This document shows positions 35,271 to 40,976 of a stretch of 64,000 bases of DNA, one piece after another (position 1 is the first letter of the stretch; every line of letters begins with the position of its first letter). The position numbers were made by a program, and so were the translations under genes. Origin of the DNA: Planctomycetota bacterium (lineage in GTDB: Bacteria; Planctomycetota; SZUA-567; H5-PLA8); the NCBI GenBank assembly GCA_015075375.1, contig JABTUM010000001.1, positions 1,731,201 through 1,795,200 of the forward strand, in the 5' to 3' direction. Under the pieces are notes generated by a model, which saw only the letters and a program-made list of their open reading frames with translations, was not told the origin of the DNA and ran no database searches.

Positions 35271-35912
35271 TTGTCCAGCGATTCGCAACGCTCGGCGGCC
35301 GCGGCCGATTCGGCCACTCCGGCCGGCGCGAAGCTTTCCGCCCGGGAAGCGCTCGATAAGAAATTGCTCGGCCTGGTCGAACGCTTTCGCGCCGGCGACG
35401 ACGCCGCATTCGACGAACTCGCTCCGCTGGCCGGGCGCATGGCCTATCACCTGGCGCTTCGTTCCGTCGCCGATACCAATCTCGCCGAAGATGTTGCACA
35501 GGAAGCGCTGGTCAAGCTTTACAAGCACGTCCACGAGATGGAAGGCCTCGGCGCGTTCAAGACCTGGTTCTACCGCGTGGTTTTGAATCTGGTGCACGAC
35601 CACTACCGCCGCAGCAGCCGTAAAGACGCGGCGCTGGGGACGTTGGAAGAATTGCGCACGCTGGAAAGCAAGGCGCGCGAAGAACCGCTGGGCGCGGTCG
35701 AACGCGATACGCTGCGGCAGTCGCTGCAGGAAGCGCTGGCGAGTTTGGACGACAAGCATCGCGAAGTCTTTATCATGAAAGAAGTAGAAGGGCTGGGCCA
35801 CGCGGAAATCGCCGAACGGCTGGGCGTGCCGGAAGGCACCGTCTGGTCGCGGCTGAGCTACGCGCGCAAGAAGTTGCAGGAGAAGCTAAGGCGGCGCGGA
35901 TACACGGGGTAG
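35271..35912 (+). CDS. ECF-type RNA polymerase sigma factor
   Basis: A 213-residue sigma factor. The frame is open from ATG 35157, but TTG 35271 has AGGAG five bases upstream and leaves a normal-sized protein. Region 2 (about 35-105) has DDAAFDELAPLAGRMAYHLA, AEDVAQEALVKLYKHVHEME and FKTWFYRVVLNLVHDHYRR; region 4 (about 150-205) has LDDKHREVFIMKEVEGLGHA and EIAERLGVPEGTVWSRLSYA. The next gene, 98 bases downstream, encodes its probable anti-sigma factor, so both form a signalling pair for envelope or protein-quality stress. Confidence 0.94.
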   Translation: MSSDSQRSAAAADSATPAGAKLSAREALDKKLLGLVERFRAGDDAAFDELAPLAGRMAYHLALRSVADTNLAEDVAQEALVKLYKHVHEMEGLGAFKTWFYRVVLNLVHDHYRRSSRKDAALGTLEELRTLESKAREEPLGAVERDTLRQSLQEALASLDDKHREVFIMKEVEGLGHAEIAERLGVPEGTVWSRLSYARKKLQEKLRRRGYTG

Positions 35913-36010: not shown

Positions 36011-37093
36011 ATGAAGGACGTGACGATGCCCGACTGTTCGAACTCGGCGGCGCCGGCTTGCGCGGAAGTGCAAGCGGCGCTGAGCGATCTGCTGGATCTG
36101 CGAAGCGGATCGAGTCATCCGCCCGAAGGGCCGCTCAGCGCGCCCGAAGCGTACGCGGCGTATATGGATCACCTCGAGCGCTGCGCGGAATGCCGCTCGG
36201 AACTGGAGAGCCTGTCCGAAGTGGGCGCGCTGTATGCCGAATTCAGCGTCGGCGAACTGCCGGCGCAGGCGTTCGAAACGATGGGTGCTCGAGTGCGCCA
36301 GCGCATGGCCGCCGAAGCGGGCGTGCGCCCGGTGCTGCGTCTGGCCGATGCGCCAGCCGCGGCCGTTCCGGCTCGGCCGCGCGGCTGGATGCCGGTCTTC
36401 GCCACCGCGGCCGCCGCCGCGGCCTTGGCGCTCGTGGCGACGCTTTTCGTCGCCGACAGCCAGAACGGCGGCTCCCAAGAGCCCGCCGTCGTCCAAGCGG
36501 GCGCCACCTCGGCGAACCCCGGGCCGATGCCCAAGCGCTTCGAAAGCAGCCGGCCCGTCAGGCCGCTGGCGAACGTGCCGCTGGCGACGACGCCCGCGAT
36601 GCCGGTGACCCTGATGGTTCCGCGCGGCCCGCAGATGGTCAACCAGACCGTCGATCCCAGCGCGCTGCCTGGCCCCGACGAGTTCATGCGCATGCTCGAA
36701 CGCGAGTTCGAACGCCAGCGCTACGTGGGCGTGGGCGAATGCGCGAAGGCGCGGCCCAGCGGCGAAGCGGTCTGCCTGCTCGGCGCGGTCTTCCGAATCC
36801 AGCGCGAAGCCGAAGCGGCGGCCAAGTCGCCCCAAGGGATCGAAGTTTGGGATGTCTATCCGGGCAGCCCCGCCGATCAGGCCGGCTTGCACCGCGGCGA
36901 CCGGATCCTGGGGCTCAACGATCTGAAGTTCGAACAGAGTTCGCCGTGCGAGGTGATCAAGCTCCTGAACGCGCTCGAGAAGCTCGGCGCCGGCGAGTTG
37001 GTGGAACTCGATTTCGCGCGCCGCGAAGCAGGTAACGGTCCCGAAGCCGGGCAGTGGTCGTGGCAGAAGTCGCTGATCGAACTTTCGAAATAG
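36011..37093 (+). CDS. ZAS-type anti-sigma factor with C-terminal PDZ domain
   Basis: A 360-residue protein. The cytoplasmic part has the zinc-binding anti-sigma motif His54-x3-Cys58-x2-Cys61 (HLERCAEC). A membrane helix lies at about 126-147 (WMPVFATAAAAAALALVATL), then a Pro-rich linker and a PDZ domain at about 237-345 (IEVWDVYPGSPADQAGLHRG, DRILGLNDLKF). Anti-sigma factors normally hold their ECF sigma until cleaved; a periplasmic PDZ suggests binding of misfolded C-termini as the signal, as in RseP/DegS logic but in the same polypeptide. A strong terminator follows. Confidence 0.85.
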   Translation: MKDVTMPDCSNSAAPACAEVQAALSDLLDLRSGSSHPPEGPLSAPEAYAAYMDHLERCAECRSELESLSEVGALYAEFSVGELPAQAFETMGARVRQRMAAEAGVRPVLRLADAPAAAVPARPRGWMPVFATAAAAAALALVATLFVADSQNGGSQEPAVVQAGATSANPGPMPKRFESSRPVRPLANVPLATTPAMPVTLMVPRGPQMVNQTVDPSALPGPDEFMRMLEREFERQRYVGVGECAKARPSGEAVCLLGAVFRIQREAEAAAKSPQGIEVWDVYPGSPADQAGLHRGDRILGLNDLKFEQSSPCEVIKLLNALEKLGAGELVELDFARREAGNGPEAGQWSWQKSLIELSK

Positions 37094-37122
37094 GCCTTAA
37101 TCCCTTTCCTCCCTGTCGTACG

Positions 37123-37150
37123 GCGCCGCTCTCCCCAGCGGCGCTTTTTT
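37123..37150 (+). terminator. Intrinsic terminator of the sigma/anti-sigma operon
   Basis: GCGCCGCT (37123-37130) and AGCGGCGC (37137-37144) with a 6-base loop, followed by TTTTTT; 30 bases after the stop codon. Confidence 0.9.
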
Positions 37151-37223
37151 ATGCACCCGAACATCCATAACACTCCTCGCAGCGTACGCTTTCGATAACA
37201 CCCTAATTTTTTATTTTTACGAA

Positions 37224-37251
37224 TTGACCTGTTATGAAACGAGGGTATGAA
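37224..37251 (+). promoter_or_regulatory. Strong promoter of the candidate small RNA
   Basis: TTGACC (37224-37229), 16-base spacer, TATGAA (37246-37251), preceded by an AT-rich UP-like tract (CTAATTTTTTATTTTTACG, 37204-37221). The layout is that of a strong constitutive or stable-RNA promoter. Confidence 0.65.
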
Positions 37252-37257
37252 TGGCCC

Positions 37258-37406
37258 TGTCTCCAGAACCTGAAAACTAAATGCAGGCCCAATAAGGGCA
37301 AGATGTTACTTTAGATCGTGCCGGTTGCGCGAGGTACTATCCCCCCCACTACTTCGTGTGGTCGCGCACGGTGAGGCCGGAGATCGCAAGATCTCCGGCC
37401 TTTTTT
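37258..37406 (+). ncRNA. Candidate free-standing small RNA (about 150 nt)
   Basis: Bounded by a good promoter (37224-37251) and an excellent terminator (37375-37406), with no credible protein frame. Internal pairings: GGCCCTG near 37253 with CAGGCCC near 37284 (one mismatch), or alternatively GCCC-AATAA-GGGC; and TGCGCGA (37326-37332) with TCGCGCA (37362-37368), enclosing a C7 run and a CCAC/GTGG hairpin. It shows neither the SRP RNA tetraloop domain nor tmRNA or RNase P signatures; a 6S-like rod cannot be drawn convincingly. It is separated from the downstream subtilase, which has its own promoter. Confidence 0.5.
37375..37406 (+). terminator. Intrinsic terminator with GCAA tetraloop
   Basis: Perfect 11-bp stem GGCCGGAGATC (37375-37385) and GATCTCCGGCC (37390-37400), GCAA tetraloop, then TTTTTT (37401-37406). 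Ends the candidate small RNA. Confidence 0.95.
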
Positions 37407-37601: not shown

Positions 37602-40600
37602 ATGCGTTGGTCTGCTTGGCGTTATGCGATTGCGGCGGCGTTGGCCGTGCTGCTGGCGGTGGCCTTTTGGGCTGGGCCGCCCGCCCGCCCCGAAGCGCCC
37701 GCCACGGAACCCGTCGTAGCCGGCGAGCCGCCCGCCGCCGAACCCGCGCCACCCGTGCATCCGTTGGACGCCTATCCGCGCTGGGGCGGAGCCTGGAACA
37801 GCGCCGATGTCGGCGGCGACGGCTTCTTCGATCCCGTTCGCGCTCAACGCTTTGCCGAAGACGCCGGAACCGATAACCGCTTCGTGATCCAGCTTCAATC
37901 CCGCGCGCTGCTGCCCGATCCGAAGGCGCCGCTGGAAGAGATCGTCCCGCCCGAAGGCGAGCACCTCGTCTATCTCCAGTTCGAAAAGAACCCCACGCCC
38001 GAACAGAAAGAACAGCTCCAAGCCGCCGGCGTGGAACTTTTCCGCTACGTGACGGGATCGGCTTGGCCGGCGCGCGGCACGCGCGCGGCGTTCGAGAAGG
38101 CCAAGGCGCTGGGCTTCGTGCGCGCGCTGGCGAGTTCCGATGCGCGGGACAAGCTGCACTTCAGCGTCTTCGCCGATGCGCGGCCGGAACACGCGCAAGC
38201 CGCCGAAGGCCAGGTGCGCTACCGGCTGCTCACGTATCCCGGTACGGCGCTGGAAGATCTGCAAGCGGCCGCGCAAGCCTCGGGCGGCCAGGTGCGGCCG
38301 TGGCGCACGAGCGTGCTGGGTCCGCTTTTTGAAGTGATCGGCCCGCCCGAAAGCGCGCTGGCGATGGCGCAGCTTCCGCAAGCCAAGTTCGTACTCTACG
38401 CCGAGCCGCCCGTCGGCAAGCGCGACGCGACCACGGACGAAAATACTAATGTCACTGATGTGCGCGACGGTCTGGGTTTAACCGGTGCAGGCATTGAGGT
38501 GATGGTTCGTGAAGTATATAAGGTTGGAACTGAAATATCTGGGTTTCTGGAATACCACTTAGACATTGAACCAAATTTTTTCGATAACGAACCCCTTTCA
38601 GATGCCCCTGTAGATGATTCGCCTTTCGTTCCGCCTCCATATCAGCATTCAACCCAAGTTGCAGGACAAATAGGTGGACAAGGAATTGAAATTCCCGGTG
38701 CCAAAGGCGTAGCGCCTGGCGTAATGATGTTCGGTTACGATATTTCGCCTCAAAATACGGATGCTTTTTCAACTGCAGATATTCTTGACGCCGACTCTTC
38801 AGCCATTCGAATTAGCAACCACTCATACGGCCCGACCGGCGAAGGCGATGGCTCGTATGACCCGATCAGCGCCGACTGGGACCAAGCGCTGCGCGACGGC
38901 GCGGAGGGCGAAGGGCTGGTGGCGATGTTCGCCAGCGCAGAGGTCTTGCCTGTGCGTTTCAAGCAGATTGACTATTTCAGTGGGATGAAGAACGGAATCT
39001 GCGTCAGCGCCAGCAACGACACGGCGCACTGCGGGGACGACGATCCGCTGGCCGCAGTAGCGAGCGGAATCGCCACCTTCGTGGACTTCGGCCCGATGCT
39101 CGACAGCCGCATCAAACCCGACTGCGTCGCGCCGGGTACCTCTGTCACACTCCTGTACCGAGTTGAGGATTTCACCACCAGCAACGGAACGTCATTCGCT
39201 GCACCTGCAGTTACTGGGATGCAAGCCCTACTGTTCGAACATTTCCTTAACGAGAGTCCCGGCCTGGAGCCCAGTGCGGCACTAGCAAAAGCCCTGATAC
39301 TTAATAGCTGCACAGATATCGGCCGAACTGGTCCAGACGCACGATATGGCTATGGCATTACGAATATCGAGAAGGCAGTACACGTGGTTTCTCAGCACTT
39401 TAACACCCCACTCGACCCCCTAATCTTTGAAGGTCGTGTTGGAACTGGCGAGGAAGATGAGTTTATTGTCTCCGTTCCAACCACCGAGCCGCTCAGGGTA
39501 ATGCTCGTCTGGATGGACCCTGCCGGCGAGCCTATGGCCGCAAAAGCCATCACAAATGACTTGGATCTAGAGGTCGTGACACCGGCCTCGGTGACGGTCT
39601 TCCCCTTCTCGCTCAATGCCAACGCTTCAGGGTTTGGCTCAAGCCCAACAGGCGAACAAAGCGATCCTCTGGCCACTGCGACTGCTGCCAATCGCCAAGA
39701 CAACGTTGAGCAGGTTGTTATAAATAACCCGGCCAGCGGGAGCTACACCATCCGCGTGCGTGGCTTCAACGTGCCAGTAGGAGATGCCCCAGACGACGAT
39801 CAAGCCTACGCCGTTGTCGTCTGCAAAGGAGAGGCCATCGCCGCGACTCTAGTGACGGCCCCTGACACCCCAGGAAAAACAGTCAACGGAATCACCTACC
39901 TGCCCGTAGTAGGCGGACATGTAGATTTTACTGTGAACATCGTGGGCGGTACGCCTCCATTCATTATTGACTGGGATTTCGATGGGGATGGAACTCCAGA
40001 CGATACTTCCACAGATGTCATGACGCAAAGCTTCACGCATCCCATCGGGTTCGATTACCCAGGTGGTGCTGATACTTTCGTAGCGGAAGTCACTATCACC
40101 GACAACTCGGCACCGACACAATTCAGTACGCAGGCGATGCGAACAGTTATCGTGCTAGACCCGCCTGAAGTCACAATCGCCGCTGCACCATTAACGGGTG
40201 AGGTGCCGCTTAACGTATTTTTCTCCGCGATTGACGTGACTGGAATCGTCGAGACCTACTTCTGGGATTTCGGTGATTCGACGGTGTCTCTAGAAAGCGA
40301 TCTAAACACCACCCACTTATACGAAACGCTTGGGATGTACACGGTGGAACTGACCGTGACGGACATTGTTGGACAAACCGGAACCGCGTCACCCGTGGAC
40401 ATTACTGTGGAGAAGCGCATCCGCGATGCTTTCGTGCAGAAGTTCTCGGGCAGTGTGAATTACATCCGCCGCACCGGCAGCTTCACGTTCACGCTCGTCT
40501 CCGACGATCTGGCACTCTCGCGGCAGGAGTACCGTAACGCAGTAAAGGCTGTGCCCCCCAAGTTTGAGGGCAAGTCGTTCGACCTGTACTATTTTAGCGA

Positions 40601-40976
40601 TAAAACTGAGGTCGACCCTGAAGATAAGCTTGGAGAGAAGTTTGAAACCTTCATCATCAACAAGGTCGGCCAACGCGTCGTGCCCAACGACCGTAACAAG
40701 CAGTTTAAGATCCAGTACGCGCGAAAAGGTTGGATTGTTGTCAAGTGGGGCGTGCCCGAAGATATGTTCGCGCCAGATGGCAGCTCGGCCGTGGAGGTCT
40801 TCGAGACGATCGGCATGGACGGATTTACCGAGAGCAGCGATCCGGACGATCCGCTCACGGACTTCCCCTTCGAAGTCGCCATCGATACCGACGACGCGAC
40901 CTACCGCGCGACGTTCAACCTCATCTTCAAGAACATCCGCGGGATCACCGGGCGAGCGACGCACCGCAAACCTTAG
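37602..40976 (+). CDS. Subtilisin-like (S8) protein with PKD domains and an incomplete active site
   Basis: An 1124-residue exported protein from ATG 37602 (GGGTGGGG upstream; GTG 37581 is an alternative). Signal peptide at 1-25, a 270-residue pro-region, then an S8 domain at about 285-600. His349 (HSTQVAG) and Ser531 (NGTSFAAP) are present, but the Asp position (family V-x-V-x-D-G) reads VMVREVY and the oxyanion Asn (AAGN) reads FASAE, so cleavage activity is doubtful. A P-domain-like region (about 610-745) and two PKD domains follow (FIIDWDFDGDG; YFWDFGDSTVS), then about 180 residues unlike anything I know. GC content changes abruptly inside the gene. Repeat copy B starts 9 bases after the stop. 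Confidence 0.85.
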   Translation: MRWSAWRYAIAAALAVLLAVAFWAGPPARPEAPATEPVVAGEPPAAEPAPPVHPLDAYPRWGGAWNSADVGGDGFFDPVRAQRFAEDAGTDNRFVIQLQSRALLPDPKAPLEEIVPPEGEHLVYLQFEKNPTPEQKEQLQAAGVELFRYVTGSAWPARGTRAAFEKAKALGFVRALASSDARDKLHFSVFADARPEHAQAAEGQVRYRLLTYPGTALEDLQAAAQASGGQVRPWRTSVLGPLFEVIGPPESALAMAQLPQAKFVLYAEPPVGKRDATTDENTNVTDVRDGLGLTGAGIEVMVREVYKVGTEISGFLEYHLDIEPNFFDNEPLSDAPVDDSPFVPPPYQHSTQVAGQIGGQGIEIPGAKGVAPGVMMFGYDISPQNTDAFSTADILDADSSAIRISNHSYGPTGEGDGSYDPISADWDQALRDGAEGEGLVAMFASAEVLPVRFKQIDYFSGMKNGICVSASNDTAHCGDDDPLAAVASGIATFVDFGPMLDSRIKPDCVAPGTSVTLLYRVEDFTTSNGTSFAAPAVTGMQALLFEHFLNESPGLEPSAALAKALILNSCTDIGRTGPDARYGYGITNIEKAVHVVSQHFNTPLDPLIFEGRVGTGEEDEFIVSVPTTEPLRVMLVWMDPAGEPMAAKAITNDLDLEVVTPASVTVFPFSLNANASGFGSSPTGEQSDPLATATAANRQDNVEQVVINNPASGSYTIRVRGFNVPVGDAPDDDQAYAVVVCKGEAIAATLVTAPDTPGKTVNGITYLPVVGGHVDFTVNIVGGTPPFIIDWDFDGDGTPDDTSTDVMTQSFTHPIGFDYPGGADTFVAEVTITDNSAPTQFSTQAMRTVIVLDPPEVTIAAAPLTGEVPLNVFFSAIDVTGIVETYFWDFGDSTVSLESDLNTTHLYETLGMYTVELTVTDIVGQTGTASPVDITVEKRIRDAFVQKFSGSVNYIRRTGSFTFTLVSDDLALSRQEYRNAVKAVPPKFEGKSFDLYYFSDKTEVDPEDKLGEKFETFIINKVGQRVVPNDRNKQFKIQYARKGWIVVKWGVPEDMFAPDGSSAVEVFETIGMDGFTESSDPDDPLTDFPFEVAIDTDDATYRATFNLIFKNIRGITGRATHRKP

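Follow-up and report, generated by a model that had tools for sequence, protein, structure and literature searches.

Does the intergenic region between an anti-sigma-like gene and an S8 peptidase gene of this Planctomycetota bacterium encode an RNA of its own, and what could the run of seven Cs within it recognize? The earlier note on the window (the whole 64,000-nt stretch of DNA analyzed) had proposed a free-standing small RNA of no known family, with an AT-rich upstream tract, a textbook promoter and a very strong terminator. It had suggested alignment with relatives, an Rfam search and target prediction for the C7 stretch as checks. Comparison with related genomes indicates that the interval listed in Table 1 is a genuine small regulatory RNA gene, not catalogued before, with a predicted transcript, and that the RNA represents a new family of the C-rich-loop kind. 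On sequence grounds, it probably tunes the amount of SMC protein made.

Table 1. Predicted features of the small RNA locus and its flanking genes (positions in the window).
Feature	Positions	Strand	Basis
Anti-sigma-like membrane protein with PDZ domain (neighbor outside the RNA)	36011..37093	+	Pfam/NCBIfam
Terminator belonging to the upstream gene and setting the RNA gene apart	37122..37150	+	
AT-rich, UP-element-like tract upstream of the promoter	37201..37223	+	A/T at 18 of 23 positions
Sigma-70-type promoter, TTGACC-N16-TATGAA	37224..37251	+	9 of 12 consensus matches; similar promoters in homologues
Small RNA gene, ~150 nt, both ends predicted	37258..37406	+	Promoter-to-terminator span; homologues in nine genomes
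Conserved long hairpin	37315..37372	+	Covariation in nine sequences; predicted folds
Apical loop CUAUCCCCCCCAC, proposed seed (C7, 37341-37347)	37337..37349	+	Unpaired in 9/9; complementary site in the smc leader
Intrinsic terminator with GCAA tetraloop	37373..37406	+	13-bp stem and T run; conserved
Secreted-type S8 peptidase with PKD domains (neighbor outside the RNA)	37602..40976	+	Pfam

The AT-rich tract is present as claimed, and in a sequence of 65% GC only 97 of 63,977 windows match it. The promoter is also present, although 'textbook' was a generous word for its partial consensus match and a −10 element ending in A; because of that final base, the window promoter scan omits it. Its main support is conservation, as a TTGAC-like and TAT-like pair lies at a similar spacing to the hairpin in most homologues and is weak in G001 and G005. 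Transcription is predicted to start at ~37258. The terminator ranks among the two best between 30 and 45 kb of the window, in agreement with the strength first ascribed to it, and the independent upstream terminator is likewise real. The C-run of the homologues is 6, 7, 8 or 10 long and would shift any reading frame, leaving no plausible coding frame, as the earlier note had held. A tRNA search of the region returned none. The sole other C or G run of at least seven in the window is a C8 at 33445.

Homologues were sought by DNA comparison, which located one in G004 after the same sigma and anti-sigma genes, followed by those in G006 and G002. A first covariance model built from these three and the window sequence gave a single match each in five more genomes: G001 (E = 3.5e-7), G003 (E = 4.4e-8), and G005, G007 and G008 (E = 0.005–0.012). 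The three weaker homologues share the anatomy of the others, with a C-run loop, a conserved AC..UUC on its 3′ side and a terminator. The RNA is thus single-copy in all nine examined genomes of this Planctomycetota order (G000–G008, most of them fragmented assemblies), seven in the RNA's own family and two, G007 and G008, in a second family (f2). The sole other match in the class, in G015 (E = 0.53), was rejected as a sequence without the C-loop. Across 383 further genomes of the phylum, a second model, built from all nine sequences, gave no credible match; its weak hits in G041 and G150 resemble coding sequence and a self-complementary G/C repeat and were set aside. The motif was also absent from the viral collection searched. 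Because the second model includes the nine sequences, its scores for them are circular, and independent support for the homologues comes from the first model together with the shared anatomy. The alignment with relatives yields nine homologues that keep promoter, hairpin, C-loop and terminator together as one conserved unit.

The neighboring genes are not conserved with this unit. An ECF sigma gene, ending at 35912, precedes the anti-sigma-like gene in the window, and this operon adjoins the RNA in G000, G004 and G006, with the anti-sigma part also next to it in G002, where the contig begins there. An S8 peptidase gene follows the RNA in only four of the nine genomes (G000, G004, G001 and G005); the downstream gene is unrelated in G003 and G006 and convergent in G002, G007 and G008. 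Since downstream genes vary and can face the RNA, it is a free-standing RNA and not a leader, consistent with the initial claim of an independent unit, here a conserved promoter–hairpin–terminator whose neighbors are exchanged. A cis-acting leader or attenuator of the S8 peptidase gene would account for the four genomes in which the RNA precedes that gene, and for G001, where the RNA moves with it. Gene order in the remaining five genomes rejects such a leader, and the terminator lies outside any alternative fold with the conserved hairpin, so that we regard this explanation as highly improbable.

At the G001 site (L024), the RNA is missing from its place just downstream of the anti-sigma gene and sits instead before the S8 peptidase gene. 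The vacant place holds an element of ~180 nt, bounded by inverted terminal repeats (GAGTGCGTCCTAAAAC...GTTTTAGGACGCACTC), which looks like a small mobile repeat. In five of the nine genomes a palindrome, ATAAC-N9/10-GTTAT, precedes the RNA promoter, 151–170 nt upstream of the C-loop (G001, L044; G002, L023; G003, L043; G005, L047; G006, L022); such palindromes total only one to five per genome. The window carries half-sites, with ATAAC at two positions (37167 and 37195) and GTTAT at one (37231). The palindrome looks like an operator for a regulator of the RNA.

The compact fold was then assessed in the nine-sequence alignment. The fold energy gives z = −5.1 with the terminator and only −1.7 without it; thermodynamics alone being weak, the hairpin was accepted on its covariation across the nine genomes. 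Its 18 stem pairs form in 84% of the alignment cells, and nine of them are changed on both sides, which no shuffle equals. When the partner was slid by one to three columns as a control, 27–46% of cells formed pairs, with zero to four double-change pairs. The apical loop of every sequence holds a C-run of 6 to 10 that is predicted to be unpaired, with a mean probability of 0.98–1.0 per sequence and ~1.0 for the C7 of the window. Both the internal complementary segments and the single-stranded C7 that had been proposed from the letters alone are therefore upheld. The AC..UUC on the 3′ side of loop and stem is unusually invariant, while the 5′ third of the RNA is without sequence conservation. 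The second hairpin is the terminator, closed by GCAA or another loop, leaving one C-loop per RNA. A pseudoknot of the C-loop with Gs in the 5′ part of the same RNA was set aside, as G006 and G001 are without suitable Gs.

The RNA matches no catalogued family. Searched against Rfam at the gathering thresholds and at E ≤ 10, the RNA returned no family; relaxed matches, here and in the eight homologous loci, were to generic terminators or chance only. 6C RNAs have two hairpins with six or more Cs per loop, a two-C-loop architecture that the single C-loop found here does not share. The 6C model (RF01066) matched neither the RNA, at gathering or E ≤ 10, nor the eight homologous loci at E ≤ 5. For sX13 (RF02232), neither its three hairpins with C-rich loops nor an Rfam match was found over the RNA; a generic sX13 match falls on the separate upstream terminator (37100–37150) at 12.8 bits versus the 50 required. 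Searches of the seven family genomes for 6S RNA (RF00013) and for Hfq found neither, with the controls detected in both cases. The original view that the RNA belongs to no known family holds against Rfam. What the RNA does share with trans-acting sRNAs of the C-rich-loop kind is its own promoter and terminator with no fixed flanking gene, a conserved unpaired C-run in an apical loop and a complementary G-run conserved near a start codon, found in the smc leader of all seven family genomes and not in f2.

The partner of the C-loop was explored by scanning 621 predicted gene starts from 864 kb, ~12% of the RNA's own genome, where translation is SD-driven (start choice favors the SD, and the profile is partly circular). 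The smc leader formed the strongest duplex with the loop, at −22.5 kcal/mol, and was the only leader among the 621 with GTG6 within 60 nt of the start. The product of this candidate target gene is SMC. The SD of the S8 peptidase gene, GGGUGGGG, was no better than the control (−14.9 versus −15.4). Whole-genome target searches used an exact 10-mer. The exact complement, GTGGGGGGGA, is rare, occurring only 36 times in the nine genomes, in some cases antisense to the RNA gene. Near gene starts, the recurrent place of the exact loop complement is smc, where GUGGGGGGGA lies at −32 to −35 in four genomes (G000, G004, G002 and G003). Other 10-mer sites near starts (L103, L104 and L110) do not recur in orthologues, and the 10-mer shared by the f2 genomes (L108 and L117) lies inside a coding frame.

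In all seven family genomes, a TG6-8A run is found at −30 to −35 of smc, and none of 19 other genomes of the class has it, including the two f2 genomes that carry the RNA. The lengths of the C-run and the leader G-run are 7/7 in G000, G003 and G004, 6/6 in G001, 8/8 in G006, 8/7 in G002 and 10/7 in G005. They are identical in five of the seven, with a marginal permutation fraction of 0.048 among leaders that are related by descent. The loop flanks fit the leader in six of the seven, loop U facing leader A and loop AC facing leader GU. The C7 stretch does have a G-rich complement, as the earlier note had suggested for an antisense seed; that complement is, however, not the Shine–Dalgarno sequence in general, the recurrent partner being the G6–G8 run ~30–35 nt upstream of the smc start, beside the SD.

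Two other explanations bear on this match. The C-loop could serve a broad regulator of many G-rich ribosome-binding sites, like sX13 and 6C RNA, with smc merely its best match. The SD zones of ~3% of genes contain G5 runs, several start regions form duplexes below −16 kcal/mol and f2 keeps the C-loop without the smc site. Start-region duplexes nevertheless barely beat those of a reversed loop (11 versus 6 below −16), and no other perfect site recurs near orthologous starts, making this reading rather unlikely. Even less probable is a protein-binding or housekeeping RNA, such as a divergent form of 6S RNA or an RNA sponge sequestering a C-binding protein, with the smc G-run a separate leader element. 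Its single copy per genome, the invariance of AC..UUC, the want of a 6S match in the family and the two f2 genomes would suit such a role, whereas the ends do not pair together, a central bubble is absent and in six of seven genomes the smc site complements the loop, non-C flanks included. A 6S identity was rejected on this architecture and the Rfam result. The f2 loci (L045 in G007 and L046 in G008) retain the RNA and its C-loop with no smc G-run, so the RNA would have another target there or the smc link would be younger.

The main reading is accordingly weighed at a probability of about 0.6: a ~150-nt trans-acting sRNA, working in a bacterium with no recognizable Hfq, would pair through its C6–C10 hairpin loop with the smc leader and control translation. 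In seven of seven genomes the leader itself, at approximately −45 to −10 of the start codon (L129–L135), is predicted to fold into a hairpin of −16 to −20 kcal/mol that pairs with the SD; the lower 3′ arm contains the SD, and the G-run occupies the loop together with the 5′ arm. Because its covariation is weak (one double change among five sequences, with 114 of 500 shuffles as good), this hairpin stays a prediction, and it may have a regulatory role of its own. With the G-run occupied, computed accessibility of the SD rises in some genomes and falls in others.

A bolder reading, held with less confidence than the main one, is that a dedicated Hfq-independent sRNA sets condensin (SMC) synthesis, its C-loop acting as a toehold that invades the SD-sequestering hairpin while the two homopolymer lengths co-evolve. 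In the main reading, the loop UCCCCCCCAC would base-pair with the G6–G8 run of the smc mRNA, ~30–35 nt before the start codon; this run would supply the loop and the 5′ arm of the predicted hairpin, in which the SD is paired in the lower stem. Pairing would begin as a loop–loop contact on the exposed Gs and then invade the 5′ arm, and displacement of that arm would free the SD, so that smc translation would depend on the amount of RNA. Alternatively, RNA bound ~10 nt upstream of the SD could block ribosome loading. Activation through opening of the hairpin is slightly favored over repression, since it is the loop and the 5′ arm of the sequestering hairpin, and not the SD, that are complementary to the RNA.

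Comparable designs are known from other bacteria. RepG (HPnc5490), a conserved sRNA of Helicobacter pylori, likewise directs a C/U-rich loop at an mRNA leader, where it pairs with a homopolymeric G-run that varies in length, repressing with 7–12 Gs and activating with 14 or more (PMC8295292). Its target is tlpB and its loop lies in the terminator hairpin, whereas the present RNA, from another phylum, has smc as its predicted target and carries the loop in a separate hairpin ahead of the terminator. In Xanthomonas, the Hfq-independent sX13 acts through apical C-rich loops to repress mRNAs that carry G-rich motifs close to their start codons (RF02232, PMC3771888), but with three loops of 4–5 Cs and many targets instead of one loop of 6–10 Cs. 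The 6C RNA or B11 of Actinobacteria also pairs a C-rich loop with mRNA targets (RF01066, PMC12395582), as predicted here. GsrN of Caulobacter pairs its C-rich loop with a G-tract in the katG leader, activating katG, and is linked to an ECF-type stress sigma factor (PMC5869019). GsrN is, however, transcribed by that factor, while the present RNA has a sigma-70-like promoter and lies beside the sigma operon in just four of the nine genomes. EcpR1 of Sinorhizobium is Hfq-independent with a conserved GC-rich loop acting on cell-cycle genes (PMC4414408); its targets are dnaA and gcrA, not smc, and its sequence is unrelated.

Catalogued small RNAs are few in the PVC group, which includes planctomycetes, with eight given in a review table (PMC9029176), and no report of an sRNA acting on smc turned up in a limited literature search. 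A conserved sRNA with smc as its specific predicted target would make chromosome condensation a testable case of RNA-based control. If true, it would extend the design of a C-loop facing a G-run to another phylum, in genomes where Hfq was not found.
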